From the IMG/VR virus record IMGVR_UViG_3300005253_000588, positions 1 to 26,961 of that record: a stretch of 26,961 bases of DNA. The stretch is one strand, 5' to 3'. The notes beneath the pieces are model-generated. The model did no database searches, was not told the DNA's origin, and saw only the letters and a program-made list of their open reading frames with translations. The stretch comes from a virus. The translations under genes and the position numbers were made by a program. Each line of letters starts with the position of its first letter. Position 1 is the stretch's first letter. Shown here one piece after another: positions 4,401 through 21,707 of this stretch.

Positions 4401-4425
4401 TGTGTGCCCACCCCATATCTGGGTG

Positions 4426-4617: not shown

Positions 4618-4626
4618 GAAGCGCCG

Positions 4627-4980
4627 ATGGACCGGAAGATTTCACCGCGCAGGGTCTACGGACGGTTGACCTCTACGATGCAGGGGATCGACAAGGACGT
4701 AGTCGCTGCGTCCGACCGCCTAGTCGATGAGTCGCTGGAGCTGCTAGAAGACGAGGAGCCCCGCCTGCTCCATTGGCTGAAGACGAACCCGGAGATCGAC
4801 ACCCTGCTGGGGTCGCACACGGTCGCGATGCACGCGCTGCTGTTTGGTGATTCCCGTCGAGGGTACCCCCTCGAACACACGATGGGCAGGCTCGACGCAC
4901 TGAACTACAGGCTGGTCTGCACACTGGCCGTGATGGCTACGATGAGAGAGCGGCCACTAGCAAAGGAGGTACGGCCATGA
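4627..4980 (+). CDS. Hypothetical helical protein
   Basis: 117 residues with no recognised domain. The first 60 residues are charged and look helical, with an acidic run SLELLEDEEPRLLHWL. The rest is helical with a hydrophobic RLVCTLAVMATM segment near the C-terminus. AGGAAG stands upstream of the ATG. It overlaps the next gene by 4 bases. It lies in the small-gene run leading to the terminase genes. Confidence 0.7.
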   Translation: MDRKISPRRVYGRLTSTMQGIDKDVVAASDRLVDESLELLEDEEPRLLHWLKTNPEIDTLLGSHTVAMHALLFGDSRRGYPLEHTMGRLDALNYRLVCTLAVMATMRERPLAKEVRP

Positions 4981-5354
4981 TGCCAGACGACCGAGACGAC
5001 GTCCCGGGCGAGGGTGAGGGCGAGGTCCCTGTGATCACCGGAGAGATGTCCGAGGAGGCGATCACGGCCGCAGCACTGATCAACGACTCGGACTTCATGG
5101 CCCGGCTCGACACGCTCTACGATCACTTCGTGGGGATCGGGACCAAGGCCGTGTCCTCCGCTGCGTACGGCGACGCCATGAACGCGTTTGGCAACGCGAT
5201 GCAGATCGCCAACTCGATGCACAACATCGCGCTAGTGCGCGAGAGCATCGTGCGGAAGCGCCTTGACAGGCATGCCACCCGGACCGACCTCGACCTCGAC
5301 GACGATGACCCTGCCAACGACCTCTTCGGTGGTGACGCGGTGGACGACCTGTAG
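4977..5354 (+). CDS. Acidic hypothetical protein
   Basis: 125 residues, acidic at both ends (N-terminal DDRDDVPGEGEGE, C-terminal DLDLDDDDP) with a helical middle. A near-perfect ribosome site AAAGGAGGT lies 7 bases before the ATG, so strong expression is likely. No known family is recognised. The acidic tails and position just before the terminases would fit a DNA mimic or a packaging accessory, but that is only a guess. Confidence 0.75.
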   Translation: MMPDDRDDVPGEGEGEVPVITGEMSEEAITAAALINDSDFMARLDTLYDHFVGIGTKAVSSAAYGDAMNAFGNAMQIANSMHNIALVRESIVRKRLDRHATRTDLDLDDDDPANDLFGGDAVDDL

Positions 5355-5355
5355 G

Positions 5356-5643
5356 ATGATGGACGAGCGCATGCAGGAAGGGGCCGAGGGGCCGACACCC
5401 GAGTCGTCGCTCGGCTATACCCGTCGCATCCGCGCGATGGTGCACGAGGCCGCCTCCCACTACAGCCCGAGGCGCACCGGGCAGGAGATGATGGACACCG
5501 CACTCGACCTCTACGCGGTTGCGTTGGATGGGCTGTTCGGCGAGCGCTGGCGGAAGCACGCTCACCCCGAGCACCGGGACATCCTCCGGCACTACATCGA
5601 CGACCCAGTCCACTGGGAGACTGCAATGGCGGGCACCGGGTGA
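5356..5643 (+). CDS. Hypothetical protein before the terminase
   Basis: 95 residues from ATG 5356, one base after the previous stop. An upstream in-frame ATG at 5263 would overlap the preceding gene by 92 bases with unlikely Thr/Ser-rich sequence. The protein is helical and contains RRTGQEMMDTALDLYAVALDGLFGERWRKH. I recognise no family. Its stop overlaps the GTG of the next gene (GTGA). Confidence 0.7.
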   Translation: MMDERMQEGAEGPTPESSLGYTRRIRAMVHEAASHYSPRRTGQEMMDTALDLYAVALDGLFGERWRKHAHPEHRDILRHYIDDPVHWETAMAGTG

Positions 5644-6137
5644 CGCAGGGGACAGGGACACACGGTAGCAAGTTCACCCCGGAGACCCTAGCCCTTTTCA
5701 TCGAGGGTGTGCGCGACCGGGGTCTGACGCTCAAGGCTGCATGTGGCTACGCCGGGATCGCTACACGTACGTTGGAGCGCTGGCACGCCCGCGCCCGCTC
5801 CGAGGCAGCCGACGAGGACGCCAAGGAGATCGGACCCTACACCCAGTTCTTCCTCGACATCGAGCTGGCGCAGGGACGCGGGCAGGCCACGGTCGAGGAG
5901 CAGCAGTGGAAGCTCATCAATGCCGGGGACGGTCCGTCCATCCGCCGCTGGTTGGAGGCGCACGACCCACCCACATGGGGCCGCAGGACCTCAGGCCGCG
6001 CCCCGGTGGTCATCACTGGCGACGGAACGAAGGTCGCGATCCTACAGCAGGGTACCTCGGAGAACCCGGCCGACTACTTCGGCGTCGAGTCCGTGGTCAC
6101 TGACCCCACCCTAGCAATCGAGGGACCTGCCGAGTGA
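5640..6137 (+). CDS. terS: Terminase small subunit-like HTH protein
   Basis: 165 residues. An N-terminal helix-turn-helix of the kind in phage small terminases is visible (FTPETLALFIEGV, then LKAACGYAGIATRTLERWHARAR). It is followed by a helical oligomerisation-type segment and the conserved ending SIRRWLEAHDPPTWGR. Small terminases recognise packaging sites on phage DNA and recruit the large subunit. It starts at a GTG overlapping the previous stop and overlaps the large-terminase GTG by 4 bases, which is the usual order. The assignment rests on HTH plus neighbour. Confidence 0.8.
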   Translation: MTQGTGTHGSKFTPETLALFIEGVRDRGLTLKAACGYAGIATRTLERWHARARSEAADEDAKEIGPYTQFFLDIELAQGRGQATVEEQQWKLINAGDGPSIRRWLEAHDPPTWGRRTSGRAPVVITGDGTKVAILQQGTSENPADYFGVESVVTDPTLAIEGPAE

Positions 6138-7786
6138 CCACCGCCACCACAGAGAAGCAGCGGATCAATGACCCGTCCATGCTCTACCTGTTCCGCACCC
6201 CGGACGGGCGAGCGGCTCGGTGGCAACGCCCCACCACCAAGCAGGAGCTGGCGGATAGGTTCGAGCTGTTCGGCTTGAAGCTGAGTCCTAACGTGCACCC
6301 GGCGTGTGTGGATTTGGGCCACTCCGCGCCCCTCGACGTGGCGTGGTCCATCTATAGCGGCACCGATTACCGCACAGGCAAGCGCGCGCCGGTGATCGTC
6401 CTCAAGGGTTCGCGTGGCCTGTCCGGCAAGAGCACCTTGCTCGCCGGGGTATCGAGCATCGAGGGGCTGGAGGGGTACAACGGAACGGTCCTTGGTGGCT
6501 CCTTGGTCCAGTCGCAGAACGTGCAGGAGATCAGCAACAAGATCTGGGACCGCGACATCGAGACCGACGAGGCCATCTACGAGGGCGGGCTCTCGATCCT
6601 CATCGACGACCCCACCGCTTACCAGACCAAGTTCTCGTACTCGGGGGCGTGGCGTAAGGTTCTGACCGCATCGTCGAGGCAGGCCCGAGGTCCCCACCCG
6701 CACCGGCTGCGGATGGACGAGGTCGACGAGATGGTGCAGAGCGTCTTCGACAGCGCCATGGGTCAGACCATGAGCCTCGACCTAGACATGCCGATCCAGA
6801 CAGCCATCGCCTCCACCCACCAGCATGCCGACGGGACGATGACCTACGTGCTCAAGGAGGCTGCCACCAAGGGCTGGCCCGTCTACGAGTTCTGCTACCG
6901 CGAGTGCTTGCGTACCGAGGACCGCTACCTCGACGTCTGGAAGGACACGAAGTGGGACACCGAACGGCGCGCCCCTGACGACGTCCCCGACGGCAAGGAG
7001 GGCGGCTGGCTCCCGATGTGGCTGGTGGTCGAGAAGCGCGACGGCGTCTCGGTCGCCATGTGGAACAACGAGTACGAGCTGGGTGAGCCCTCTATCGAGG
7101 GCCGAGCCATCCACACCCCGGCGGTCGAGTGGACCTTCGACTCTAGTAATCAGTGGTTGGACGGGGGCAGACGTGGCGGGCCCTTCATGGGCGACGAGGG
7201 CGAGTATCTAGAGTTTCCCTGCTGCGAGCTGTACGCTGACAACCGGGTGCCTTGTGCGCGAGGTCATCGCTACATCACTGGGGCCGACTGGGCGCAGACC
7301 ATCGATTGGACGATCATCGTCACCTTCCGTACCGATGTCAGTCCGTGGCGGCTCGTCGCGTGGGAGCGCACCGGCCGCAAGCCGTGGCCCGTGATGTTGA
7401 ACCGCTTCAACATCCGCAAGACTCGCTACCCCGGCCTCGCCGTCCACGACGCCACCGGCATGGGCGGCAAGCTGGTCTCCGACTTCCTAGAGGTCTCGGC
7501 CGAGCCCTTCGTGATGGCGGGCCAGAAGCGGAACCTGCTGTTTACCGACTACGTGGTCGGCGTCGAGAACCACGAGATCATGTGCCCCCGGATCATGTTC
7601 GCCTACGACGAGCACCGGCTGTGCACTGTCAAGGACCTGAAGCAAGGCGGACGCGCCGACGGGGGCCACCCACCCGACTCCGTGGTGGCGGCTGCGCTGG
7701 CGTGGTCGATGCGTGACGTGGAGTTCGTGGAGGACCTACAGCCCGGCGGCTATGACACTGTCGGTCCGCTCGGCGGGCTGGCCTGA
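6134..7786 (+). CDS. terL: Terminase large subunit
   Basis: 550 residues. The ATPase N-half has a Walker A motif GSRGLSGKST at 92-101, a Walker B with RLRMDEVDE at 191-199 and a coupling-motif-like AIASTHQ at 224-230. The RNase-H nuclease half carries the acids Asp385 (GADWAQTIDWT), Asp439 (VHDATGMGG) and Asp515 (GHPPDSVVAA). The enzyme pumps DNA into the prohead and cuts the concatemer. It starts at a GTG overlapping the small terminase stop. All key residues are present, and the length is normal for the family. Confidence 0.95.
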   Translation: MTTATTEKQRINDPSMLYLFRTPDGRAARWQRPTTKQELADRFELFGLKLSPNVHPACVDLGHSAPLDVAWSIYSGTDYRTGKRAPVIVLKGSRGLSGKSTLLAGVSSIEGLEGYNGTVLGGSLVQSQNVQEISNKIWDRDIETDEAIYEGGLSILIDDPTAYQTKFSYSGAWRKVLTASSRQARGPHPHRLRMDEVDEMVQSVFDSAMGQTMSLDLDMPIQTAIASTHQHADGTMTYVLKEAATKGWPVYEFCYRECLRTEDRYLDVWKDTKWDTERRAPDDVPDGKEGGWLPMWLVVEKRDGVSVAMWNNEYELGEPSIEGRAIHTPAVEWTFDSSNQWLDGGRRGGPFMGDEGEYLEFPCCELYADNRVPCARGHRYITGADWAQTIDWTIIVTFRTDVSPWRLVAWERTGRKPWPVMLNRFNIRKTRYPGLAVHDATGMGGKLVSDFLEVSAEPFVMAGQKRNLLFTDYVVGVENHEIMCPRIMFAYDEHRLCTVKDLKQGGRADGGHPPDSVVAAALAWSMRDVEFVEDLQPGGYDTVGPLGGLA

Positions 7787-7801
7787 CCCGTGTATCATGA
7801 G
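7784..7801 (+). promoter_or_regulatory. Copy 1 of 18-nt intergenic element (possible promoter)
   Basis: TGACCCGTGTATCATGAG at the end of the terminase gene is identical to 13497-13514. TATCAT at 7793-7798 fits a -10 hexamer. No -35 is evident. Each copy lies 14-18 bases before the start codon of a small gene. A promoter or another conserved regulatory site is inferred from the perfect repeat. Confidence 0.55.
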
Positions 7802-7815
7802 AGAGAGGTGAACCG

Positions 7816-8136
7816 ATGAGAGGCAACCGGAATCTGCTCGTCTTCTGCCCCGAGGTCTACGACCGGCAGGAGTTCGTATCGACCCCGCAAGGCGTCGCTA
7901 CCACCGAGGCCCAGCCACAAGAGCACAGGTGGCATCAGCACTTCGAGATCGTGCAGTACAACCATGATGGTGACCGCCCTTCGGACTTCATGCTCGGCCC
8001 CGTCGGCCGGGAGTGTGGCCGGTGCCTGTCGCGCCTCAACCCTGCAGGCGAGATCGCCTACACCGACTCGGCTGAGGTCGAGCGGCAGGAAAAGGGCGAG
8101 GTAGCCCCGCCGAAGCTACTGGTACCTCGACATTGA
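7816..8136 (+). CDS. Hypothetical protein with CxxC
   Basis: 106 residues from ATG 7816, with GAGAGAGGTG upstream. It has a CGRC pair in the middle and several histidines (EHRWHQHFEIVQYNHDGDR). A second cysteine pair is not seen, so full zinc binding is uncertain. The family is not recognised. The 18-nt element in front suggests its own transcription start. Confidence 0.7.
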   Translation: MRGNRNLLVFCPEVYDRQEFVSTPQGVATTEAQPQEHRWHQHFEIVQYNHDGDRPSDFMLGPVGRECGRCLSRLNPAGEIAYTDSAEVERQEKGEVAPPKLLVPRH

Positions 8137-8513
8137 ACAGACAGCAGCGCCGCGCACAGGGACAGAGGGGTCCACTCTACACGCGCGAGCAGCGCAAGGA
8201 GGGGATGGGAGACGTCGAGCCAATCCGCCCCGGCCTCTACTACGTCACGCTCTACGCATGGCCGCAGTGGAAGGCGCTCGCGCACCCGGCCCCGATGCAG
8301 TGCCCGGTGGCCTTCGTCGAGAACGTCATGGGCTGGGGCACCGAGCGCATCCCCACCGTGACCGTCAACAAGATGCGAGCCCGGCGCATGCGCCTGTGTT
8401 ACGTCTGCTCGATGGTGGTGCTGGAGGCCCGCGCCCGAGGCTCCGAGATACGGGAGTTCCAGCGCGCGGAGCTGGTCATGAAGCGCGAGCGTGCAGCTAG
8501 GGGGGCCGCATAG
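8133..8513 (+). CDS. Hypothetical protein, basic N-terminus
   Basis: 126 residues from a TTG overlapping the previous stop (TTGA). It begins MNRQQRRAQGQRG, a basic start seen in many small phage proteins. The middle is aromatic (GLYYVTLYAWPQWK), then comes a Cys pair (LCYVC) and a charged helical end. The function is unknown. A start at ATG 8205 would lose the basic tail. Confidence 0.7.
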   Translation: MNRQQRRAQGQRGPLYTREQRKEGMGDVEPIRPGLYYVTLYAWPQWKALAHPAPMQCPVAFVENVMGWGTERIPTVTVNKMRARRMRLCYVCSMVVLEARARGSEIREFQRAELVMKRERAARGAA

Positions 8514-8638
8514 TGCTAGGTGTGATCGCGGTGACTGTGGTCTACGCCCTCGGAGGTGACCCGGCGTGGGCCATCGTGACGGGGTTCGTGGTCGAGCTGC
8601 TGATCCTCAGAGGCGAGCGCCGCCGGGGCCGTGGCTAG
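8513..8638 (+). CDS. Small membrane protein, 41 residues
   Basis: It starts at a GTG whose first base is the last base of the previous TAG, and it ends inside the next gene. The translation has two hydrophobic stretches (LGVIAVTVVYALGG and AWAIVTGFVVELLIL) and a strongly basic end RGERRRGRG, as in a membrane peptide with a cytoplasmic tail. Coding support is the tight packing and hydrophobic pattern. The function is unknown. Confidence 0.6.
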   Translation: MLGVIAVTVVYALGGDPAWAIVTGFVVELLILRGERRRGRG

Positions 8639-9209
8639 CAAGAAGCTCAGCCATGCCGACGTGCAGAGGCACCTCGCGCAGTGGCTGAGGGTACCCAATA
8701 GCAACGCCCGTCCGCCGGTTGTGGCGGAGGAGCTAGCGATCGAGGGATCGTGGGGAGACCACGGCCGCATAGACGTCCTGCTGTTCCGAGCCCTCAACGG
8801 ATACAAGCAGATCGTGCTCGAAGCCTACGAGGTGAAGGCCACGCGCGCCGACTTCCTCAGCGACATCCGCTCGGCGAAGTGGCGACGCTACCTGCCGCGC
8901 CTGACCCGCTTCAACTTCGCGGCCCCCATCGGTGTGGTCAAGGAGAGCGATCTACCGCCGGAGGCAGGGCTCATCGAGATGGGCCTGCGCAAGGACGGCC
9001 GGTACTACTGGCACCGAGTGCGCCGGGCCCCGAGCCTCGCGAAGCTCGACGGCGAGGTGAACTCGGCGGGCTATGTGTTCACTCACGAGCCCCCGACGAT
9101 CGACACCCTCGCCCGCATCCTCTACAAGGTGAACAGCCAGCGTCGCGAGCAGGGCTGGGCGGATGCAATCCGATCAGGAACACGAAGCATCTATCCCCAG
9201 CGCGGTTGA
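8631..9209 (+). CDS. MmcB-like PD-(D/E)XK nuclease-fold protein
   Basis: 192 residues from GTG 8631. The core resembles MmcB-type DNA-repair proteins. A Glu at 33 or 34 is followed by GRIDVLLFR (Asp48) and AYEVKATRADFLSDIR (Glu67-x-Lys69), then RWRRYLPRLTRFNFAAP and GVVKESDLPPEAGLIEM, the conserved metal-site and downstream blocks. MmcB relatives are linked to mutagenic repair or DNA processing, though nuclease activity is not proven for all. It overlaps the membrane peptide by 8 bases. Confidence 0.8.
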   Translation: MASKKLSHADVQRHLAQWLRVPNSNARPPVVAEELAIEGSWGDHGRIDVLLFRALNGYKQIVLEAYEVKATRADFLSDIRSAKWRRYLPRLTRFNFAAPIGVVKESDLPPEAGLIEMGLRKDGRYYWHRVRRAPSLAKLDGEVNSAGYVFTHEPPTIDTLARILYKVNSQRREQGWADAIRSGTRSIYPQRG

Positions 9210-9235
9210 CGCTCGGAGCCACTCCGATCTAAGGT
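9206..9235 (+). promoter_or_regulatory. Possible promoter
   Basis: TTGACG at 9206-9211 is followed after 18 bases by TAAGGT (9230-9235), of the TANNNT type used by actinobacterial primary sigma factors. It lies 25 bases before the start of the next gene. Seen by eye only. Confidence 0.4.
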
Positions 9236-9260
9236 GCGGGGGAGTAGAAGGAGGATCAGC

Positions 9261-9584
9261 ATGGTGGACATGAAACGAGAGCCTGAGGAGGGGTACGCTG
9301 GAGCGTACTACGGCATGGGATTCGGCACGGGCGTGGACGCGCTGGAGTGGCTGAACCTTACGCTGGCCGCATACCCGGAGCACCACATTCCGGTGTGGGT
9401 AGAGGCAGCGTCACCGCTCAAGCCGGAGGCCCCGGACCTCAGCATCGGGGTGCTGCTGCCGATCACAGGCAAGACCATGATCGTGTACGCGGTAGTCGCG
9501 GCGCAGGAAGAGATCGACGAGGCCGTCGACCTTGTGAGCGACTCGCTGGTTGCACGCGCACACTTCAGGTTCGTTAGAGGGTAG
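9261..9584 (+). CDS. Hypothetical protein
   Basis: 107 residues from ATG 9261, chosen because AGAAGGAGG ends 5 bases upstream. An upstream in-frame ATG at 9234 is not needed. The protein has alternating hydrophobic strands (IGVLLPITGKTMIVYAVVAA) followed by an acidic helix and looks like a small alpha/beta fold. The family is not recognised. A promoter-like sequence stands just upstream. Confidence 0.75.
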   Translation: MVDMKREPEEGYAGAYYGMGFGTGVDALEWLNLTLAAYPEHHIPVWVEAASPLKPEAPDLSIGVLLPITGKTMIVYAVVAAQEEIDEAVDLVSDSLVARAHFRFVRG

Positions 9585-9591
9585 GTCGCCC

Positions 9592-10149
9592 GTGCCCATT
9601 CACAACCGAGCCCTGCTGGTGCCCGGGGAAATCCTGCGGGCGCGCTACCAAGGCCGCGAGGTCATGGCCGAGGTGGTGGCCGAAGGCCTGATCCGGGTCG
9701 ACGGTGGCGAGACTCACACTTCGGTGAGTGCAGCGGCCAAGGCCATCACCGGACGCTCGACCAACGGCTGGAAGTTCTGGTCGCTCGTCAACGTGCCGGA
9801 CGTGCCCCCCGAGCAGGCCCCCTTGCTGGAGCCGCCCACACCTGATGTGAAGGTGGACTCGGACGTAAAGAAGGCTACACCCGAGCGTCCGTTCATACCT
9901 TCGGGGTCCTGCGACAGCCCGTTCCACGGGAAGGGTAAATCCTGCCCGGACTCCATCGCGGTGGTCACTCGGGTGAAGGGTGCGGACGAGCGGATGGGCG
10001 AGGTGCACGAGCGCTGTTACGACCACGTGGTCAACATCCTAATCTATTGGGATGGGTTCTGGACCACCGAACCCCTCGACGAGGAGGAGCTAGCCCGCGC
10101 CGAGCGCAAGGTAGACCTCCGCAGACGAGGTGGTAGGAAGGCTGAGTGA
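9592..10149 (+). CDS. RAMA-domain protein with C-terminal Cys/His segment
   Basis: 185 residues from GTG 9592. Residues about 11-66 match the RAMA (restriction-enzyme adenine-methylase-associated) domain: PGEILRARYQGREVMAEVV, then SVSAAAKAITGRSTNGWKFWSL. In other proteins RAMA is proposed to bind modified DNA or accompany methylases. The middle is a Pro/Asp/Lys linker. The C-terminal part has CDSPFHGKGKSC and a later Cys and may bind zinc. No methylase is adjacent. A related RAMA-like tail occurs in the SprT-like gene at 18064. Confidence 0.75.
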   Translation: MPIHNRALLVPGEILRARYQGREVMAEVVAEGLIRVDGGETHTSVSAAAKAITGRSTNGWKFWSLVNVPDVPPEQAPLLEPPTPDVKVDSDVKKATPERPFIPSGSCDSPFHGKGKSCPDSIAVVTRVKGADERMGEVHERCYDHVVNILIYWDGFWTTEPLDEEELARAERKVDLRRRGGRKAE

Positions 10150-10414
10150 TACGTACAGATTCACGCTCGATGAGGTGCGCCCATTTCGAGAGGAGGTCGG
10201 GCTATGATTACCCGATACTGCTTTCGACTGTGAGACGGACGTCCCCAGCGACGCCGCGCTGTGTAGCTCATGTGCCCGTCACCGATCCGATGGACATGAT
10301 CCTGCCACCATCTACGAGGGGCAGTGCCACGGGGCGGGGCCCGACGGACTGAACGAGAAGCGCCAAACCATCAGCAGCCCACGAGGGTTGCTAGCGAGGG
10401 AGCGGGCCCCTTAG
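10142..10414 (+). pseudogene. Possible broken small Cys-rich gene
   Basis: In one frame, 10142-10207 reads as 20 residues (SDTYRFTLDEVRPFREEVGL, if CTG 10142 is the start) and stops at TGA. The same frame then stays open from 10208 to the TAG at 10412-10414 and gives a protein-like CETDVPSDAALCSSCARH segment. That second part has no ATG, GTG or TTG start. An ATG at 10204 overlaps the TGA but reads another frame for nine codons. The picture fits a small zinc-type gene damaged by a stop or frameshift, or an unusual recoding event. The last 40 bases contain a hairpin and are probably not coding. Confidence 0.35.
10373..10392 (+). terminator. Hairpin, possible terminator upstream of the portal
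   Basis: AGCAGCCC and GGGTTGCT form an 8-bp stem (one G-T pair) around the tetraloop ACGA. There is no U-run, so a classical intrinsic terminator is uncertain. The position just before the portal promoter-like element fits a transcription boundary. Confidence 0.45.
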
Positions 10415-10428
10415 TCGGGTAGAATGGA
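10415..10428 (+). promoter_or_regulatory. Promoter-like element before the portal (copy 1)
   Basis: TCGGGTAGAATGGA is identical to 20077-20090 in front of the prohead protease. TAGAAT (10420-10425) is a good -10 hexamer. GGAGG (10427-10431) could pair with CCTCC (10447-10451), which might mask the ribosome site GGGAGA at 10441. Confidence 0.6.
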
Positions 10429-10452
10429 GGGGAGCACCTAGGGAGACCTCCA

Positions 10453-11778
10453 CTGTCCGACCACGACTTCCAAGAGTTCGGTGTCACCGGCCTGAGCGAG
10501 TTCGGTGGGCAAATCCATGAAGAGCGGCTAAGGCAGCTCATGGACCCGACGCGCCGGAACCTGACCTACCGAGAGATGTCCGACAACAGCCCCGTCATCG
10601 GCGGGGTACTGCTGCTCCTCGACCTGCTCGTGAAACAGGTTGAATGGGACATCCGCACTCCCGAGGGTATGGAGGAGGACCCGGTCGCTGTTGAGCAGGC
10701 GGCCTTCGTGGACTCGTGCTTCCTCGACCTCGGCCGCCCGTTCAAGGACGCGGTCAGCGACTTCCTTTCGTTCGTGCCCTTCGGTTGGTCGTACCACAAC
10801 GTGGTGTTCAAGAGGCGGAACGGCTTCCAGCCCGAGCCGAACATCGGTGCCGACGGCAAGGTCATCGAGGGCCCTGTGTCGTCGTTGTTCAGCGACGGGA
10901 AGGTCGGGTGGGATAAGTTCGCAGGGCGCGCCCAATCCACGCTCGACCGCTGGATCTTTTCCAGCCGGGGCGACATCGTGGCGATGGTGCAGCGCCCGCC
11001 CAACGGAGGCACCTCGGTCACGATCCCGCTGTCGCGAGCCCTTCACTTCCGCACCTCGGGACGGCACAACAACCCCGAGGGCCGGAGCGTCCTGCGCACA
11101 GCCTACCGGCCGTGGTACTTCCACAAGACGATCGAAGAGATCATGGCCATCGGGATCGACCGCGACCTCGCAGGTACCCCCGTGCTGGAGGTCCCCGGCG
11201 AGTACATGAAGGCTCGCGCGAACCTGCCAGCCAACCTCGCACGCGAGCGCGATCAGTGGGAGAAGCTGGTCCGCAACATCCGGCGGGGTGCCAAGGATGG
11301 CATCCTCATGCCGCTGGTCCGCGACCGCAACGGCAAGGAGCGGTTCAAGCTCTCGCTGCTGACCACGGGCGGCCGTCGACAGTTCGACATCAAGGGTCTG
11401 CTGGAGTACTACGACCAGCGTATGGCGATGGCCGCGCTCTCCGATGTGATCCTGCTGGGCCACGAGACGGTGGGCAGCTTTGCGCTGGCCGACTCGAAGA
11501 CCAATCTCACCGCGATGTTCGGCAGCTCGCTGACCGACATCATCACCGGCCAGTTCAACCGGCGCGCGATCCCGGCCCTGATGCGGATCAACGGTATGGA
11601 CCCGGAGCGCGCGCCCCTACTGGTCCCGGGTGATATGGAATCGCTGAACCTTGAGGAGCTGGCCATCTACGTGCAGGCGTTGTCCGGTGCAGGCATGCCA
11701 CTGTTCCCCAACGAGGCGCTGGAGGGGCACCTCCTCGCAGCAGCTGGCCTGCCGGGTGAGTCACAGGAACTCGAGTAG
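10453..11778 (+). CDS. Portal protein, apparently starting at CTG
   Basis: Portal of the dodecameric ring through which DNA enters and leaves the head. From CTG 10453 it has 441 residues. The N-terminal stretch GVTGLSEFGGQIHEE followed by LTYREMSDNSPVIGGVL and VKQVEWDI is the conserved opening of a widespread portal family, so translation must begin upstream of the first in-frame ATG at 10540. Between the in-frame TAG at 10420 and that ATG there is no ATG, GTG or TTG. CTG 10453, 6 bases after GGGAGA, is the best candidate. The protein continues with EEIMAIGIDRDLAGTPVLEVPGEY and ends 6 bases before the MuF gene. If only ATG 10540 is used, the product has 412 residues. Confidence 0.9.
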   Translation: MSDHDFQEFGVTGLSEFGGQIHEERLRQLMDPTRRNLTYREMSDNSPVIGGVLLLLDLLVKQVEWDIRTPEGMEEDPVAVEQAAFVDSCFLDLGRPFKDAVSDFLSFVPFGWSYHNVVFKRRNGFQPEPNIGADGKVIEGPVSSLFSDGKVGWDKFAGRAQSTLDRWIFSSRGDIVAMVQRPPNGGTSVTIPLSRALHFRTSGRHNNPEGRSVLRTAYRPWYFHKTIEEIMAIGIDRDLAGTPVLEVPGEYMKARANLPANLARERDQWEKLVRNIRRGAKDGILMPLVRDRNGKERFKLSLLTTGGRRQFDIKGLLEYYDQRMAMAALSDVILLGHETVGSFALADSKTNLTAMFGSSLTDIITGQFNRRAIPALMRINGMDPERAPLLVPGDMESLNLEELAIYVQALSGAGMPLFPNEALEGHLLAAAGLPGESQELE

Positions 11779-11784
11779 ACTGCG

Positions 11785-13203
11785 ATGGCCATCGGCGACC
11801 TCGCGAAGGCAGTCTACGGCCGGAACGGCAAGCGTAAGAATCGCCGCCGCGTCCGCAAGGATGCCAACACCGACCGCATCGCCCGTGCGCTGAAAGAGGA
11901 ACGCTCTCGGCTGGCGCAGGTGTGGGCCGACGTAAGCATCTCCGAGGCCACAGCCATAGCTACGGTCGCCGACTCCTCGCTTGTGGTGGCCACCGTCGAG
12001 GGCGCGTATAGCCCTGCGGCCGAGCCCACTCGTAAGGCCTTGCTCGCGGGCCTTGGGATCGGGGGGGACATCGCTCTGGAGGACCTCGCGATTGCGACGC
12101 TGCAATTCAACCTGACCAACCCGCTCGCGGTGGAGTGGGCTAGCACCAAGTCCGCTAATCTGATCGTCGAGGTCTCTACGGAGCAGGTTGCGACGGTTCG
12201 GTCCGTGATCGCCGAGGGTCTCACCTCAGGCAAGGGCGCGCGAGTTGTGGCGGTCGAGCTACGTGAGACCATCGGTTTGCACAGGCGGTACGCCACGGCA
12301 GTGGATCGGTTCCGCGAAAGACACCTCACCCAACTAATCAAGCAACACCCCCGCACTCCGATCAGTGTGCTACAGGGCCGGGCCGATGCGAAGGCAGCGA
12401 GGTATGCAGACAGGCTCCGTCGCTCCCGAGCCAAGACCATCGCCCGCACTGAGCTACAGCGCGCCGCCAACGAGGGTCAGCGACAGGCGTGGCAGCAGGC
12501 CGTACAAGCTGGGGAGCTGGAGGTTACCAACGCCGAGCGCGAGTACATCGCCACGCTGGGTGGGCACGCTGTCTGCGACGATCAGGACGGTATCCGTATC
12601 CCGTGGGACGGCGAGTTCCCGGTGGCAGGCGACCCGCCGATCCACCCCAATTGCGGGTGCACGTTCGGCCTGCGGAAGGCAGAGGTGCTCGTGCCCTCCG
12701 AGGCGGACGCGGGTCCTCTCTCGATCAGCGGTCCGACTATTACGTCCGCGCAGGTGAATCAGTTCCTCGCTAACTCACAGGTCACGAAGCCGGTGGTTCA
12801 CCGCACGAGCACGTCAGCCGCGCGCTCCATTCGTAAAGGCGGGGTGGACTTCTCGAAGACTGCACCCCGATCTACCTTCGGCGAAGGGTTCTACACGTCC
12901 GAGGAGGCCATCACCTTCTATGGTGACGAGCAGTTGAGTATCGCGATCCGCTCGCAGAAACCGTTCAGGGGAACAGCCCAGCAGATGGATGACAAGATCA
13001 CCTCGTTCGCCTTGGAGGCCCCAGAGAAGACGGTCGAGACCGTCACAGGGGAGGTGAGGGTGGCGTTCTGGGAGAGCGGCGAGCAGCAGCGGGCGATTCG
13101 TCAGGCGTTCCTCGATGAAGGCTTCGACAGCTTAATCGTTGAGTCGGGGAATGATATAATCATCGGGCTGGTCGAGGATAACATAAAGGTCGTGGTGAAC
13201 TGA
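11785..13203 (+). CDS. MuF-type head protein with C-terminal ADP-ribosyltransferase-like domain
   Basis: 472 residues. Residues 1 to about 300 are a phage Mu gpF-like minor head protein: helical, with SRAKTIARTELQRAANEGQRQAW at about 214-236 and the hallmark PIHPNCGC at 285-292. From about 335 a separate domain begins: VVHRTS (His339), then STFGEGFYTSEEAITFYGD (Tyr370), and an end GFDSLIVESGNDIII...DNIKVVV. This order matches the H-Y type ADP-ribosyltransferase or DUF3990-like fold found in MuF polymorphic toxins. The domain could modify a host target after injection or act during assembly. The third catalytic residue is not clear by eye, so activity is unproven. A small Cys-rich gene overlaps its stop. 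Confidence 0.85.
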   Translation: MAIGDLAKAVYGRNGKRKNRRRVRKDANTDRIARALKEERSRLAQVWADVSISEATAIATVADSSLVVATVEGAYSPAAEPTRKALLAGLGIGGDIALEDLAIATLQFNLTNPLAVEWASTKSANLIVEVSTEQVATVRSVIAEGLTSGKGARVVAVELRETIGLHRRYATAVDRFRERHLTQLIKQHPRTPISVLQGRADAKAARYADRLRRSRAKTIARTELQRAANEGQRQAWQQAVQAGELEVTNAEREYIATLGGHAVCDDQDGIRIPWDGEFPVAGDPPIHPNCGCTFGLRKAEVLVPSEADAGPLSISGPTITSAQVNQFLANSQVTKPVVHRTSTSAARSIRKGGVDFSKTAPRSTFGEGFYTSEEAITFYGDEQLSIAIRSQKPFRGTAQQMDDKITSFALEAPEKTVETVTGEVRVAFWESGEQQRAIRQAFLDEGFDSLIVESGNDIIIGLVEDNIKVVVN

Positions 13204-13433
13204 TGGCTGACTGGAAGCGCTCGCGGGGAGACTTTCGTGGGTGCCTAGCCTGTACCCACTACACCGGAGCCGACCGCTGCACCGCGTTTCCTGAGGGTAT
13301 CCCCTTCCCGATCCTCGCGGGGGAGATCGACCACCTCGTAGAGAGGCCGGGGCAGAAGAAGCCCCAGACGCTTCGGTTCGAGGCCCTCCCGGAGCACAGG
13401 CCATCTAGCAAACAGGGGGCCGAGCCCGCCTAG
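13203..13433 (+). CDS. Small Cys-rich protein, usual partner of MuF genes
   Basis: 76 residues; the ATG overlaps the MuF stop (TGATG). The sequence GCLACTHYTGADRCTAFPEGIPFPILAGEIDHLVERPGQ matches a small family (C-x2-C, C-x-AFP, IP, GE-x-DH) often found after MuF genes in phages and prophages. Three cysteines and a His could hold a metal. Because the upstream protein carries a toxin-like domain, a protective or chaperone role is a reasonable hypothesis. The pairing also occurs where no toxin domain is obvious, so this is not settled. Confidence 0.75.
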   Translation: MADWKRSRGDFRGCLACTHYTGADRCTAFPEGIPFPILAGEIDHLVERPGQKKPQTLRFEALPEHRPSSKQGAEPA

Positions 13434-13434
13434 C

Positions 13435-13461
13435 AAGGCTCCGTTGATTCAACGGAACCTT
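13435..13461 (+). terminator. Hairpin after the MuF operon, possible terminator
   Basis: TCCGTT and AACGGA form a perfect 6-bp stem around a 5-base loop. The flanks AAGG and CCTT extend it after one mismatch. It directly follows the last gene of the portal-MuF block and precedes an 18-nt regulatory repeat. The U-run is weak. Confidence 0.6.
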
Positions 13462-13496
13462 ACCACGATCGGAGTACACACCCCCTAACGCGCGCG

Positions 13497-13514
13497 TGAC
13501 CCGTGTATCATGAG
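13497..13514 (+). promoter_or_regulatory. Copy 2 of 18-nt intergenic element (possible promoter)
   Basis: TGACCCGTGTATCATGAG is identical to 7784-7801, with TATCAT at 13506-13511. It comes after a terminator-like hairpin and 18 bases before the next start codon, as expected for a promoter that restarts transcription. Confidence 0.6.
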
Positions 13515-13532
13515 GGTGGAGGGGAACGCCCA

Positions 13533-13823
13533 ATGCTACGTACTGCCCGACGTTTGATCAGGGGTCTGCTACGGCGGCCCTACACACCCAAGCTCGGTCG
13601 CGAGGCCGACGCTATGGAGATGTGGCACGAAGCCGCAGTCAAGGGCGGCATGTTCTGGACGGTGCTCGTCGGGGAGTGGGAGCGCGGCCGAGGAATCGGG
13701 AGGCTCAGTAGCTGGTGCGGCAGGCGCTGCGGCAACGCTGGGTGCATTCGACTGGGCTGTTCCTGTGATGCTGACGTGTGTAGCGACTTCAGGGTCGCGC
13801 TGGTGCGTCGGGAGTTCGAGTAG
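13533..13823 (+). CDS. Small Cys-rich protein, unknown
   Basis: 96 residues from ATG 13533, with GGAGGGG upstream. A GTG at 13503 would fall inside the repeat element. The N-terminus is basic (RTARRLIRGLLRRPY). The C-terminal third is dense in cysteine (CGRRCGNAGCIRLGCSCDADVC) and looks like a metal-binding or disulfide segment. No family is recognised. It is the first gene of the accessory cassette that interrupts the head module. Confidence 0.7.
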   Translation: MLRTARRLIRGLLRRPYTPKLGREADAMEMWHEAAVKGGMFWTVLVGEWERGRGIGRLSSWCGRRCGNAGCIRLGCSCDADVCSDFRVALVRREFE

Positions 13824-13826
13824 CCC

Positions 13827-14000
13827 GTGGCCAGCATGAGCCGGAGGGTCCGGCGACGCAACCGACCAACCCTGACCCCCGGCAGGCGACCGGGCCAGCC
13901 CCGTGCTGTGGATGATCCCCCGACCCCGGCGCAGCTGCGCTTCTACCGCGAGGGTCAGCTCAAGGTGCGTTGGGACTCGATGGCGGACCTTCCGGGTTGA
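13827..14000 (+). CDS. Small basic protein, about 57 residues
   Basis: Starts at GTG 13827 or ATG 13836. The first half is very basic and Pro-rich (SRRVRRRNRPTLTPGRRPGQPR). The second half, TPAQLRFYREGQLKVRWDSMADLPG, looks structured. It could bind nucleic acid through the Arg-rich tail. The stop overlaps the first of two direct repeats that precede the next gene. The family is unknown. Confidence 0.5.
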   Translation: MASMSRRVRRRNRPTLTPGRRPGQPRAVDDPPTPAQLRFYREGQLKVRWDSMADLPG

Positions 14001-14014
14001 CGAAAAGTTCCGGG

Positions 14015-14044
14015 TTGACACTGCCTGCAACGACCCCCTATTCT
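14015..14044 (+). promoter_or_regulatory. Sigma-70-type promoter
   Basis: TTGACA (14015-14020), an 18-base spacer and TATTCT (14039-14044) form one of the best promoters in the window, 21 bases before an ATG. A 12-bp direct repeat TTCCGGGTTGAC (13990-14001 and 14008-14019) puts two -35-like copies 18 bases apart and could be a binding site. Confidence 0.65.
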
Positions 14045-14064
14045 GTCATCCGGAGGCAACGCCC

Positions 14065-14184
14065 ATGAGCACACTAGGTCTGTACACGACGGTGACCTGC
14101 CGATGGGCGTGGGTGCGCCAGCTGGTAGAGGCAGGGCTCCTGCCCCAGCTGATACACGCGGTGCTGCACCCCTTCGGGTTCTGA
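14065..14184 (+). CDS. Small protein, 39 residues
   Basis: ATG 14065 has CGGAGG 8 bases upstream and a strong promoter before that. The translation is compact and hydrophobic (LVEAGLLPQLIHAVLHPFGF) and looks like an amphipathic helix. The stop overlaps the next ATG (TGATG). The function is unknown. Confidence 0.55.
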   Translation: MSTLGLYTTVTCRWAWVRQLVEAGLLPQLIHAVLHPFGF

Positions 14185-14318
14185 TGCACGACCCCATCGC
14201 CTACACATACGAGGCTGACACCCACTGTGAGGGCGGTGCTCGTGGCCCTGCTCGTGGCCCGTATGACCTTCCTACTAATCAGGGGTTGAGTTCCGGGCCT
14301 GACGAGCCGATGATCTAG
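14184..14318 (+). CDS. Small protein, possibly truncated
   Basis: 44 residues. The start MHDPIAYTYEADTHC resembles a small phage and actinobacterial family that normally continues with a second Cys and an acidic, aromatic end. Here the sequence turns into a low-complexity GGARGPARGPYD stretch and stops soon after. A truncated or frameshifted relative is likely, though the family is recalled from memory and not named. The start codon overlaps the previous stop. Confidence 0.5.
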   Translation: MHDPIAYTYEADTHCEGGARGPARGPYDLPTNQGLSSGPDEPMI

Positions 14319-14338
14319 GTGAACCGAAGGAGACGACG

Positions 14339-14545
14339 ATGGCCCTACTGACACGAACCCATCGCCCTGAGTGCGACGAGTCCCACACCGGGTTCGCCAG
14401 CCCCTGCAACACGATCAACGCCCACGCCAACGAGTGCCAGTGGTGCTCGACGGTAGCGACCGACGTGGTCCGCCGCATGTCGCTCTGCGACTCCTGCGCC
14501 GCGACGGCCAAGGTGCAGCTGATGCTCGGGATGGCCCCCGCATGA
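14339..14545 (+). CDS. Zinc-ribbon small protein
   Basis: 68 residues; AAGGAG lies 7 bases before the ATG. Cysteines at PECDE, SPCNT, CQWC and CDSC give two clear pairs plus two singles, which fits a zinc ribbon. The partner is unknown. It overlaps the next gene by 4 bases (ATGA). Confidence 0.7.
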   Translation: MALLTRTHRPECDESHTGFASPCNTINAHANECQWCSTVATDVVRRMSLCDSCAATAKVQLMLGMAPA

Positions 14546-15273
14546 CCGACAAGCCGAAGCGCTGGTACGATGAAGACTTCGCTTCCGAGGGCTACCGTGT
14601 CAGCTCGTCGAGGGCACGGAGCTACTCGATTGAGTACGGGCATCAGCACGAGCGCGTCGCGATCGAGTTCACCGATGGATCGTGGGAGCGCATCCAGCAG
14701 GACCTCCGGCGGCTCGCCGACCAAGGTGTCGACCTCGGGGAACTGGTGAACCTCGGAGTGCTCGGAGAGCACCTACTTACCGAGTTCGAGCGGGACCGGG
14801 AGCTGAGCCAAGAGATCATGGTCTCGACTGCCGAGCGCATCGACCCCTCCACCATGGCGCGGATGGAGGGCTACCACATCCTCGGAGCCAAGCTGCCCGA
14901 CACCGTCTACGGGTCTAACCAGCTGAGGGCCTACGGCAAGACCATCCACGCCTCACACGATCACTTCAACGCCATGTGCGGTCGGGAGATGAGTGTGGCC
15001 ACCGGGGACTGCGGGTCCTTCGAGGACCTCACGATCGAGAAGCTGCACGCATGGACGCACGCGATCCCCTACAGCGGTAAGCTGCGGCGCTCCCGCCCCG
15101 AGATGGTGACCATCTGCGTGAAGTGTACCAAGGTGGTCGCGGCACTGCCCGAGGGGTGGGGTGGCGTGGTCCGTGCTGAGGAGGAAGCCAAGCAGGCCGA
15201 GCGGCTACGGGCGGCCGAGCGCTTCAACGAGAACATGCGTAGCCCACACGATGCACCGGGGAGGCTGACATGA
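14542..15273 (+). CDS. Hypothetical protein with C-terminal CxxC
   Basis: 243 residues from ATG 14542. Residues 1-110 look alpha/beta and acidic. The middle has the His-rich KTIHASHDHFNAMCG. A CVKC pair lies near 205, followed by a charged helix (RAEEEAKQAERLRAAERFNE). The Cys/His set (MCG, GDCG, CVKC) could form one metal site. I do not recognise the family. It is coupled on both sides by 4-base overlaps. Confidence 0.75.
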   Translation: MTDKPKRWYDEDFASEGYRVSSSRARSYSIEYGHQHERVAIEFTDGSWERIQQDLRRLADQGVDLGELVNLGVLGEHLLTEFERDRELSQEIMVSTAERIDPSTMARMEGYHILGAKLPDTVYGSNQLRAYGKTIHASHDHFNAMCGREMSVATGDCGSFEDLTIEKLHAWTHAIPYSGKLRRSRPEMVTICVKCTKVVAALPEGWGGVVRAEEEAKQAERLRAAERFNENMRSPHDAPGRLT

Positions 15274-17035: not shown

Positions 17036-17983
17036 ATGACAGACACCGACAGAGGGTTCCAGCGCTACATGCACATCGAGCGCCTCGGCAACGAGGAGGT
17101 GGACGGCATCGAGGACGGCACGGTCCTTGTGTTCCCGAAGATCGACGGCACCAACTCTTCGATCTGGGTGCACAACGGCGTCACCTACGCGGGCAGCCGC
17201 AAGCGGGTCCTCACTGTGGGCTCCGACAACGCGGGGTTTAACGCATGGGTGTTCGGCGACGACCCGGCGGCCACCGCCTGCCGGAGCCTCGTGCAGTCCA
17301 ACGGCGTCCGGCTCTACGGCGAGTGGCTGGTGCCTCATACATTCAAGGGCTATCGTGATGACGCATGGCGGCGCTTCTGGGTGTTCGACGTAGCAGTGGA
17401 CCGCACCCGCGAGAAGGACCACGAGCGGTCCGTCGAGTTCCTGAGCTACGACGAGTATCAGCCCATGCTCGAAGCCTACGGTGTCGACTACATCAGCCCG
17501 CTCAAGGTCGTCACCAACGGCACGCGCGAGGACTTCGACACCCTGCTGGAGCAGAACCACTTCCTGCTCCCCGATGGTGACGGTGTCGGCGAAGGCATCG
17601 TGCTGAAGCGGTACGGCTACGAGAACCGCTACGGCCGCACCACGTGGGCGAAGATCGTGAGGCAGGCGTTCAAGGAGGCGCACGTCCGCGAGATGGGAGC
17701 GCCCCGGCTCGAACGCGCCAGCCTCGTGGAGGCCAGCATCGTCGATGCCACGGTCACGCGGGAGCTGGTCGAGAAGACCATGGCGAAGATCGCCCTGCAA
17801 CGTGACGCTACCGGCTGGCGCTCCGAGTTCATCCCTCAGCTACTGGGGACCATGTTCCACGAGGTGGTGGTCGAGGAGCTGTGGGAGCAGCTCAAGAAGC
17901 ACCGCAACCCGGTGATCGACTTCAAGCGGCTACAGCGTGAGGTGGTGAAAGCCACCCGCCTCGCTGTCCCGGACGTTTTCTAA
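17036..17983 (+). CDS. RNA ligase, Rnl2-like family
   Basis: 315 residues, ATP-dependent RNA ligase that joins 3'-OH and 5'-phosphate ends. Nucleotidyltransferase motifs are complete: motif I FPKIDGTN with catalytic Lys35, GSRKR after it, motif III LYGEWLVP (Glu96), motif IIIa FWVFDVA, motif IV EGIVLK (Glu186, Lys191) and motif V WAKIV (Lys206). The remainder is a helical C-terminal region (about 215-315). The start ATG 17036 has AGAGGAAAC upstream. It may repair host tRNAs or phage RNAs cut by defence nucleases, as T4 RNA ligases do. It stands near RtcB, which has a different chemistry. Confidence 0.9.
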   Translation: MTDTDRGFQRYMHIERLGNEEVDGIEDGTVLVFPKIDGTNSSIWVHNGVTYAGSRKRVLTVGSDNAGFNAWVFGDDPAATACRSLVQSNGVRLYGEWLVPHTFKGYRDDAWRRFWVFDVAVDRTREKDHERSVEFLSYDEYQPMLEAYGVDYISPLKVVTNGTREDFDTLLEQNHFLLPDGDGVGEGIVLKRYGYENRYGRTTWAKIVRQAFKEAHVREMGAPRLERASLVEASIVDATVTRELVEKTMAKIALQRDATGWRSEFIPQLLGTMFHEVVVEELWEQLKKHRNPVIDFKRLQREVVKATRLAVPDVF

Positions 17984-18019
17984 GCGTCATGAACTCATAC
18001 ACTTTGGGACTACTGAGGG

Positions 18020-18042
18020 GGCCCGATCGTGCCGATACTTTA
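18020..18042 (+). promoter_or_regulatory. Repeated element before the SprT-like gene (copy 1)
   Basis: GGCCCG, a short gap and GTGCCGATACT (18029-18039) recur at 22080-22100. TACTTT at 18036-18041 fits a TANNNT -10. It lies 22 bases before the next ATG. A promoter is inferred. Confidence 0.5.
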
Positions 18043-18063
18043 GGTGTACGAAGGGACACCACG

Positions 18064-18810
18064 ATGGGCCGACGAGGACGCAGCGTACCGACACCGCAAT
18101 GGGCCACCGAGCTGGCCCGCGAGGTGACCGACGCCGAGGGCACCCGCATGCCCACGATCGACTGGCGCGAGGACGGCTCGATGTACACGGGCGGCCGGAC
18201 GTGGACCTTCCGAGGCCGCATCCTGATCAACGCAGGCACCGACCTCGCCGATCAGAAGCTGGTCTTGCTTCACGAGCTGGCGCACGCGGTGCTGCCACCC
18301 CACGTCAACCACAGCGCACGCTTCTGGGCGACGGCCTTCCGCCTGTACCGCGAGCACGGCCTCGACCTGAAGGACTCATGGCAGCGCGAGCGCAGCTACA
18401 AGCAGCAGGCCACCCGAGCCGCAGCTCGAGCAGGCCTCACCGAGGCGCAGGAGATCGTGGATGGCTGGACCAACGCCGCCCGCACCCGTCGCGAGGCGCG
18501 CGCCACCATCACCGAGGATGACAAGCCGATGCAGGCAGCCCTCGGCCTCCGTCCCATCAGGCGCACCGGCCGTTACGACCGCGAGGCCCTGACCGACCGC
18601 ACGCTCTACGGTGTGTACGGTGGCAAGGTCTACGAGGGGACCGTGGTCTACGGCTACGGCCGCAGCGACGTTGGCCTCCGACTGAGCAACCCCGGCAGCG
18701 ATGTGAAGGGTGCTCGCTTCGACAGCCTGAGCGCAGCAGCCAAGGCCATCACCGGGCGCAGCGAGAACGGCTGGACGTTCTGGATGCTGGCCAAGGGGGA
18801 GAACGAGTAG
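18064..18810 (+). CDS. SprT-like zinc metallopeptidase with C-terminal RAMA-like domain
   Basis: 248 residues. Residues about 30-110 carry a SprT-type site: LLHELAHAV (HExxH, 70-74) and a third ligand in NHSARFW (His83), typical of SprT/Spartan proteases that cleave proteins on DNA. A helical linker (about 95-170) follows. Residues 180-245 (LYGVYGGKVYEGTVVYG and SLSAAAKAITGRSENGWTFWML) match the RAMA-like domain seen in the gene at 9592. Such a tail could steer the protease to DNA. Target and activity are inferred. The ATG is preceded by GAAGGGA and a promoter-like element. Confidence 0.8.
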   Translation: MGRRGRSVPTPQWATELAREVTDAEGTRMPTIDWREDGSMYTGGRTWTFRGRILINAGTDLADQKLVLLHELAHAVLPPHVNHSARFWATAFRLYREHGLDLKDSWQRERSYKQQATRAAARAGLTEAQEIVDGWTNAARTRREARATITEDDKPMQAALGLRPIRRTGRYDREALTDRTLYGVYGGKVYEGTVVYGYGRSDVGLRLSNPGSDVKGARFDSLSAAAKAITGRSENGWTFWMLAKGENE

Positions 18811-18848
18811 GTGACAGACCGAGCACTAGCAGCACAGGAGGATCGCGC

Positions 18849-20072
18849 ATGATCGCCAAGTACATGAGCCGCAGTGATCTCGGCGAGGGTGAGGTCTGGT
18901 CGTGGGCATCGATCCTCGACGACAACGCCCGCGAGCAGGCCGAGCGGATCAGCCGCGTCCCGATCGTCGAGGGCCACGTCGCACTGATGCCTGATGCCCA
19001 CTTCGGCTATGGACCCCCGGTGGGGTCGGTACTTCAAACTCGAGGGGGCGTGATGCCCGGCGCGGTCGGAGTCGACATCGGCTGCGGTATGATCGCGATG
19101 CGCACCGACATCGATCGGGAGCAGCTGGCTGGGATTGAGGGTCCGATCCTCGGCGCGATCCGTGAGCTGATTCCCTCAGGCAAGGGCACCACCCACAACC
19201 AGCCGCTGGCGCAGGCCTACAACTTCGTGGAACGCTACGGGCTGCCCCCGGGCATTGGGCCACGCAGCCAGCTCGTGACACCGAAGGGCGAGAGGCTCTC
19301 TGCCCAGTACACGCGGCTGTCCGATCGCCTGCGCATCCAGTTCGGGACCCTCGGATCGGGTAACCACTTCGTCGAGGTATGCGAGGATGGGGCGGGCAGG
19401 GTGTGGCTGCTGCTGCACAGCGGCTCGCGAGGCATCGGGAACATCCTCGCCGTGGCGCACGCTCGGGTGGCGAAGAACTTCTGCGCCGACAACGGCATCG
19501 AGCTGGAGGACACTGAGGATAGCTACGTCGTGGAGGGGACCCGACAGTTCCGGGCATACATCGCGGACATGCTGTGGGCGCAGAACTATGCCTACCACCA
19601 GCGCGAGGCCATGATGGACAACCTCGTCAAGGCGATCGAGGGCACCTTCGGTACCTTCGAGGAGCACGAGCGGATCAACTGCCACCACAACTACGCCGAG
19701 CAGACGGTGGACGGGCTGTGGCTGACCCGCAAGGGAGCCATCGACGCCTCGGTCGGGGAGCTGGGGATCATCCCCGGGTCGATGGGTGCGACCACCCACA
19801 TCGTCGTCGGTCGGGGCAACGAGGACTCGTACTGCTCCTCGCCCCACGGGGCAGGCCGGGTGATGGGCCGCAAGGTCGCGAAGCAGCGGCTCGACATCGA
19901 CGCCTTCAAGACACAGATGATCGGTCGCACGTGGCTCGACCGGGACGCCGAGGCCCTGCTCGATGAGGCCCCGAACGCCTACAAGCCGATCGCTCAGGTG
20001 ATCGAGGACTCCGCCGACCTCGTGTGCTCGGCGATCGAGTTGGAGGCGTTCCTGAACTTCAAAGGGTTGTAG
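18849..20072 (+). CDS. rtcB: RtcB RNA-splicing ligase
   Basis: 407 residues, the usual length. RtcB seals RNA 2',3'-cyclic phosphate or 3'-phosphate ends to 5'-OH ends using GTP and Mn2+. Seen are MPDAHFGYG (48-56), VGVDIGCGM with metal ligands Asp76 and Cys79, GSGNHF (His174), HSGSRG (His191), CHHNYAE near 279-285 and CSSPHGAGR with guanylylated His334. No active-site residue is missing. GGAGGA lies a few bases before the ATG. It is in the same cassette as the Rnl2-like ligase, so this phage can handle both kinds of cleaved RNA ends. Confidence 0.95.
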   Translation: MIAKYMSRSDLGEGEVWSWASILDDNAREQAERISRVPIVEGHVALMPDAHFGYGPPVGSVLQTRGGVMPGAVGVDIGCGMIAMRTDIDREQLAGIEGPILGAIRELIPSGKGTTHNQPLAQAYNFVERYGLPPGIGPRSQLVTPKGERLSAQYTRLSDRLRIQFGTLGSGNHFVEVCEDGAGRVWLLLHSGSRGIGNILAVAHARVAKNFCADNGIELEDTEDSYVVEGTRQFRAYIADMLWAQNYAYHQREAMMDNLVKAIEGTFGTFEEHERINCHHNYAEQTVDGLWLTRKGAIDASVGELGIIPGSMGATTHIVVGRGNEDSYCSSPHGAGRVMGRKVAKQRLDIDAFKTQMIGRTWLDRDAEALLDEAPNAYKPIAQVIEDSADLVCSAIELEAFLNFKGL

Positions 20073-20975: not shown

Positions 20976-21707
20976 GTGAGCCGAACCAACACCAGCGTCG
21001 AGTCCATGACCGTCCACCTAGTGGAGGATCGCCGGTCGGTTGTCTCCCAGTGGGGCCTTGGCAACAGTAAGCTCGGCGACCGGGTCTACACCTTCAGTCG
21101 CTTGCCCGGCCGTGACAACACATGCCCCGGGTCCACCCATGCCTGCGAAGTAGCATGCTATGCGAAGCGCATGTACACCGACGCGAACGGGTTGCGCAAC
21201 CTGTTTCACCGGAACACCCACGAGCCCGACCTGAGCGGCCTACCCGAGGACGCCGAGATCGTCCGCATGCACGTCTCCGGCGACTTCGACACCGTGGCGT
21301 ACATCGACCAGTGGATCAAGCTGGTGCGCGAGCGCCGGGACGTGCGGTTCTTCGGCTACACCCGGTCATGGGCTGTGCCCGGGCTGCTGCACGCACTCAA
21401 CGAGCTACGGGCCCACATCAACGTGCAGCTGTTCGCCTCGGTCGATGAGGACCACAGCCACGCTGCACGGCAGGCCCTCGTATCCCAAGGATGGCGGCTC
21501 GCGTGGATGGGCGTCGACCTCGTGCCCGGCATCGAGCCGAGCCCGGAGCAGCTCGTGGACCAGACCTTCCTATCCAAGAACAAGATCACCTCGGTGAGGT
21601 CCAGCGCGGTGATGTGCCTTGAGGCCACCGGCACCCGGGACAACTGTGAGGCCTGCGGGTACTGTTTCAACGGGCAGCGCGGCGACGTCGTGTTCCCGAT
21701 CCACTGA
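20976..21707 (+). CDS. Gp88-like phage protein with cysteine clusters
   Basis: 243 residues from GTG 20976, with CTAGGAGGT 5 bases upstream. It resembles the phage family known as gene product 88: GNSKLGDRVYTFSRLPGRDNTCPGSTHACEVACYAKRMY at the N-terminus, VRMHVSGDFDTVAYIDQW and FFGYTRSWAVPGLL in the middle, and a closing MCLEATGTRDNCEACGYC. The N- and C-terminal cysteines could hold an Fe-S cluster or zinc. The molecular role of this family is not known to me. Confidence 0.75.
   Translation: MSRTNTSVESMTVHLVEDRRSVVSQWGLGNSKLGDRVYTFSRLPGRDNTCPGSTHACEVACYAKRMYTDANGLRNLFHRNTHEPDLSGLPEDAEIVRMHVSGDFDTVAYIDQWIKLVRERRDVRFFGYTRSWAVPGLLHALNELRAHINVQLFASVDEDHSHAARQALVSQGWRLAWMGVDLVPGIEPSPEQLVDQTFLSKNKITSVRSSAVMCLEATGTRDNCEACGYCFNGQRGDVVFPIH

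Follow-up and report, generated by a model that had tools for sequence, protein, structure and literature searches.

The window analysed here, a complete 26,961-base virus record, is a 27 kb fragment of a tailed phage with a GC content of approximately 65% and with essentially all of its genes on the + strand; the host of the phage is probably a high-GC organism. We found that three intact and collinear open reading frames encode a T4 Rnl2-type RNA ligase, a putative metallopeptidase and RtcB, each located where the original prediction, made from the letters of the DNA, had placed it (Table 1). The gaps between the genes are 5 nt (ligase/protease) and 38 nt (protease/RtcB), and clear Shine-Dalgarno sequences are located 5' of the ligase gene (GAGGAAA) and of the RtcB gene (AGGAGG); for the protease, a later ATG at 18064 is a possible start. 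The three genes had been described as a cassette. The preceding gene, however, ends 13 nt from the ligase gene, so that no boundary exists there and the three genes sit inside a longer array, and, since nearly all genes of the window are on the + strand and no + strand terminator was predicted around the three genes, this wording is left unconfirmed. The GC3 values of the three genes (0.84-0.89) resemble those of the portal and terminase genes, suggesting that their acquisition, if any, was not recent.

Table 1. Features of the 26,961-base window
Positions	Strand	Feature	Basis or remark
3765-4400	+	NT5C-like phosphatase of the HAD type, weakly similar to the phosphatase portion of polynucleotide kinase	Pfam NT5C 28.7 bits (cut-off 24.8); phrog_415 6.8e-5
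5640-6137		Terminase small subunit	
6134-7786		Terminase large subunit	Weak match
9550-10149	+	Second RAMA-domain protein	Pfam RAMA 38.1 bits (cut-off 35.2); 3' of terminase gene, 5' of portal gene
10540-11778		Mu-type portal	
11785-13203		Mu F-like head protein	
17036-17983	+	T4 Rnl2-type ATP-dependent RNA ligase, 315 aa	Pfam PF09414, phrog_548, profile, structure, motifs
17989-18810	+	Plausible HExxH metallopeptidase (zincin; M78/YgjP/WLM-like) with C-terminal RAMA/DUF4357-like tail	Weak Pfam matches, relative in contig L139, shared tail
18849-20072	+	RtcB RNA ligase (3'-P/2',3'-cyclic-P to 5'-OH), 407 aa	Pfam, phrog, PDB, residues
20167-20940		XkdF-like protease domain protein	3' of RtcB; matches DNA methyltransferase phrog as well
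20976-21707		GP88 family protein	3' of RtcB

The first of the three products matched Pfam RNA_ligase PF09414 (4e-15, 56.8 bits, over the cut-off) and phrog_548 (2e-39). As a check of Rnl2 membership, nucleotidyltransferase motifs I, III, IV and V, including the catalytic lysine, were compared in 55 sequences, and the residues K35-x-D37-G38, E96, E186-G187-x-V189-x-K191 and K206 were invariant. T4 Rnl2 was the first PDB match of a profile built from 58 relatives, and it was also the best Foldseek match (5e-12) of an AF2 model based on 55 relatives, which had a mean pLDDT of 88. In a VIA-align comparison, the model superimposed on T4 Rnl2 (1s68) with Z 17.1 and an rmsd of 2.8 over 194 residues, outranking T4 Rnl1 and DNA ligases, with a Naegleria Rnl2-like RNA ligase within 1 Z of T4 Rnl2, which amounts to a tie. 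Residues 231 to 310 of the model were entirely helical; a second-domain HMM gave no significant score on the ligase, and the alignment with 2hvr_A spanned residues 6-315 but at an rmsd of 12.7. By its nucleotidyltransferase motifs and predicted fold, the ligase is a member of the Rnl2 family, having the nucleotidyltransferase domain and motifs of T4 Rnl2 (gp24.1). Its relatives comprised 308 related stretches in viral contigs, with that of Cellulophaga phage phi19:3 sharing 47% identity, and 39 loci on contigs of bacterial genomes, for the most part Bacteroidota and Bacillota.

The third product matched Pfam PF01139 (1.4e-95, 321 bits), phrog_1075 (9e-118) and the RtcB entries of the PDB. The metal and guanylylation residues D76, C79, N172, H173, H190, H280, H333 and K405 were invariant in 12 homologues, and the protein is, judged by its metal ligands and guanylylated histidine, an RtcB. 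Genes for RtcB are common in phages, being present in 645 of 50,697 records, many of them mycobacteriophages and other actinophages. Thus, the catalytic residues of both ligases, predicted to be intact, were found to be so at every motif position checked, and both enzymes look active.

The middle product had been named a SprT/RAMA protease. The sequence HELAH (H95, E96 and H99), together with a further histidine within NHSARFW (H108), makes a zincin plausible; HExxH with a third zinc histidine is a feature that other zincins have in common and is not specific for SprT. The SprT part of the name did not hold, as PF10263 was not matched at E<=0.1 with the whole protein or at E<=1 with the isolated domain. 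The best Pfam matches, all of them weak, were to Peptidase_M78 (23 bits for the isolated domain, cut-off 22), YgjP-like and WLM families. The tail scored 18.6 bits against Pfam RAMA, under the cut-off of 35.2, but 19 of 28 residues (68% identity over 28 aa) are identical to those of the second RAMA-domain protein of the phage, which itself passes the cut-off and thereby backs the description of the tail as RAMA-like. The presence of that second protein might mean that the phage DNA is modified. The only relative of the protease detected, with a relaxed DNA pattern, was a standalone zincin of 154 aa (positions 3835-4299 of the 72.9 kb contig L139), which is 36% identical to it across 127 aa, retains H95-E-x-x-H99 and N107-H108, lacks the RAMA tail and scores above the cut-off in no Pfam family; its contig carries no RtcB. 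No relatives were found with the strict DNA pattern, by peptide-pattern searches of viral and genome contigs, or by tblastn in phages or plasmids. In addition, phmmer returned chance matches only, a two-sequence profile found nothing significant in the PDB, and a library of defence systems was matched by the RAMA tail only (PDC-S14).

RAMA is linked by name with DNA modification enzymes. Because of this association, and because the second RAMA-domain protein weakly matches the C-terminus of a CcrM DNA methyltransferase model, the tail of the protease may be directed to DNA. The middle gene might then encode a protease that clears DNA-protein crosslinks or debris, similar in action to SprT or Wss1, with the RAMA-like tail directing it to modified phage or host DNA and with no relation to RNA. 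The HExxH motif with its third histidine, the weak similarity to WLM and YgjP, and the RAMA core shared with a second phage protein that itself recalls CcrM all favour such a function, whereas the failure to match PF10263 and a single-sequence AF2 model too poor for fold use (pLDDT 44) speak against it; we regard it as a tentative assignment with somewhat less than even odds, and one compatible with the explanation preferred below. SprT-like peptidases of phages are described in a jumbo phage survey as probable cleavers of host proteins (PMC7824862).

The original prediction attributed a joint counter-defence or repair role to the three genes and proposed a search for their co-occurrence in other phages, naming missing linkage as one finding that would speak against it. 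A second IMG/VR contig (L129) was 99.7% identical to the window over 3586-14637, indicating that the phage had been assembled from a second dataset too. This sole near-identical contig ends at window position 14637, short of the three genes, and linkage was judged against more distant relatives; the closest portal relatives amounted to an 11 kb stretch belonging to this phage and a relative at 38% that has no RtcB. The co-occurrence search was run on relatives of the ligase, of RtcB and of the protease, and no conserved linkage was observed in anything sampled. RtcB was present in 2 of the 50 contigs bearing the closest ligase relatives, one ORF away in one (L084) and approximately 22 kb away in the other. 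Conversely, a PF09414 ligase was present in 5 of 35 contigs with RtcB relatives, 4 to 144 kb from RtcB; all five were among the 15 such contigs of at least 40 kb, and this figure of 5 of 15 has no base rate to set it against. Neither the closest full-length relative of the ligase (L070) nor the closest relative of RtcB (L005) had any of the other genes nearby. The ligase and RtcB were adjacent in one of seven contigs carrying both, and the chance of finding at least one such pair within 1.5 kb is P ~0.21; adjacency at this chance level is no evidence of conserved linkage. The SprT model reached its cut-off in none of the 50 ligase contigs and in none of 23 contigs mostly bearing RtcB, and none of the other ligase and RtcB loci retrieved had a homologue of the protease of the window next to it, the latter search being the more direct since this protease itself escapes the SprT model.

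These data bear on the possibility that the three genes form one joint system, in which the protease would act on a host factor at sites of nucleic acid damage, clearing or activating it, and the ligases would reseal the breaks. The tight spacing on the same strand and the proximity of the ligase and RtcB in L084 agree with such a system, but it is made improbable by the searches described above, by the lack of RtcB in the contig of the only protease relative and by the occurrence of the tail in a protein encoded next to the portal gene. A more specific version, in which the two ligases directly seal both classes of break and a RAMA-tethered protease frees phage DNA of an attacking nuclease or of a stalled complex, thereby linking repair to elimination of what causes the damage, is considered very improbable. 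The protease in particular, once tied to RNA repair, parts from it on two counts: its tail, being shared with a protein encoded near the terminase and portal genes, appears to be a reusable module of the phage and no hallmark of RNA-repair genes, and its sole relative has neither the tail nor RtcB in its contig. In the relatives sampled, the trio thus does not seem to travel together as a conserved three-gene system, and the arrangement appears to be peculiar to this phage.

The ligase and RtcB are themselves most likely neighbours with separate histories, derived from different phage lineages, since the ligase relatives are AT-rich (median GC of homologue loci 0.38, with 1 of 110 at 0.60 or more, as compared with 0.65 for the window) whereas two of the three nearest RtcB loci are GC-rich (0.64, 0.66 and 0.45). 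As the codon use of both genes matches that of the genome, they would have been joined long ago. The contig L084 (87,340 bp, from IMG/VR) may leave room for a weak functional coupling of the two. In this independent phage, a ligase of the same family (47% identity) and an RtcB (35%) are likewise encoded near each other, one ORF apart at positions 5774-8281; the phage differs from that of the window in being AT-rich, in having no protease between the pair and in its unrelated neighbours, which we read from their translations as thyX-like, DNA ligase and ribonucleotide reductase genes.

The explanation that we favour, with a probability of about 0.68, is that the phage carries two independent and complementary RNA-repair ligases as accessory genes, beside an unrelated protease. 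The known end chemistries of the two families are complementary: ligases of the Rnl2 type join 5'-P and 3'-OH ends, whereas RtcB joins 5'-OH to 2',3'-cyclic-P or 3'-P ends. A tailed phage would have acquired the two genes independently. With ATP, the Rnl2-type ligase would reseal RNA breaks with 5'-phosphate and 3'-hydroxyl ends, for example those made by metal-dependent nucleases such as the AriB tRNase of PARIS, and, with GTP, RtcB would reseal the 5'-hydroxyl/2',3'-cyclic-phosphate breaks of metal-independent ribonucleases. Together, they could keep tRNA or mRNA usable while host nucleases fire during infection. The zincin, which its RAMA-like tail probably connects with DNA of the phage or the host, or with a complex bound to DNA, would belong to the same gene array but to a different pathway. 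Anticodon nucleases such as PrrC leave 5'-OH/cyclic-P ends. AriB leaves tRNA ends of the 5'-P/3'-OH kind (PMC12409363). Since these two types of nuclease leave the two kinds of ends, a division of labour between the two ligases is plausible. That phage RNA ligases repair the damage done by nucleases is, moreover, a standard prediction (PMC7824862), and a counter-nuclease role had been anticipated for the present pair. The stronger expectation that the pair could reseal nearly every break with no enzyme for end healing goes too far: such repair would fall short of universal, as mixed end pairs require healing, 3'-P/5'-P and 3'-OH/5'-OH pairs being sealed by neither class. In addition, the window has a gene for a HAD-type phosphatase, which is to be set against the claim that no end-healing enzyme is involved.

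Alternatively, the ligases may serve the RNA processing of the phage, by repair or circularisation of its own RNAs or by intron-related joining, and not counter-defence. Annotations frequently call RtcB a tRNA splicing ligase, RtcB of mycobacteriophage Rey adjoins a large tRNA array, and deletion of the host rtcB left the plating of phage PAK_P3 unchanged. Intron removal has been suggested for the Rnl2 ligases of the haloarchaeal tailed virus HGTV-1 (PMC8651126). We found no tRNA gene in the 26,961-base window and no match to Rfam, so that it is without a known intron or riboswitch; on this count, RNA processing is an unlikely purpose, although the window is a fragment and such genes could sit outside it. 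If, as we favour, the two ligases protect the phage, the locus would offer a compact test case for whether separate ligases are needed against tRNases of the AriB type (5'-P/3'-OH) and of the PrrC type (cyclic phosphate).

The combination had been thought not to correspond to a described system, but RtcB and an Rnl2-family ligase in one phage have been published before (PMC7824862; PMC8651126). Jumbo phages with RtcB, Rnl1 and Rnl2 are exemplified by Burkholderia phages BcepSaruman and BcepSauron, and the authors of the survey read these ligases as repairing RNA cut by different host RNases and infer specialised, non-redundant roles for the three (PMC7824862); in the literature consulted, we found no test of this non-redundancy. 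The jumbo phages differ from the phage of the window in their much larger genomes, and a protease in between is not reported in the passages of the survey consulted, whereas here the two ligase genes are approximately 0.9 kb apart. HGTV-1, with two Rnl2-family ligases and one RtcB (PMC8651126), likewise combines the two families in a tailed virus, but it is archaeal and has 36 tRNA genes. The ligase pairing therefore adds one more case to a pattern already on record, and the locus combines known parts in a reasonable but unexceptional way. Less familiar among the three is the protease with its RAMA-like tail, which may hint at a phage factor acting on modified DNA.

RtcB of the window has the same catalytic residues as that of the RtcB/RtcA repair operon of E. 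coli, although neither RtcA nor RtcR was found among the window genes scanned. Against PrrC, T4 uses Pnkp to heal the ends and Rnl1 to seal them; here, unlike in this Pnkp-Rnl1 repair of tRNA, RtcB would join the ends directly, with no prior healing. Among the 50 contigs with relatives of the Rnl2-type ligase, six carried polynucleotide kinase (phrog_415), and in three of these (L046, L052 and L096) its gene was located within approximately 3 kb of the ligase, representing the more usual heal-and-seal pairing.
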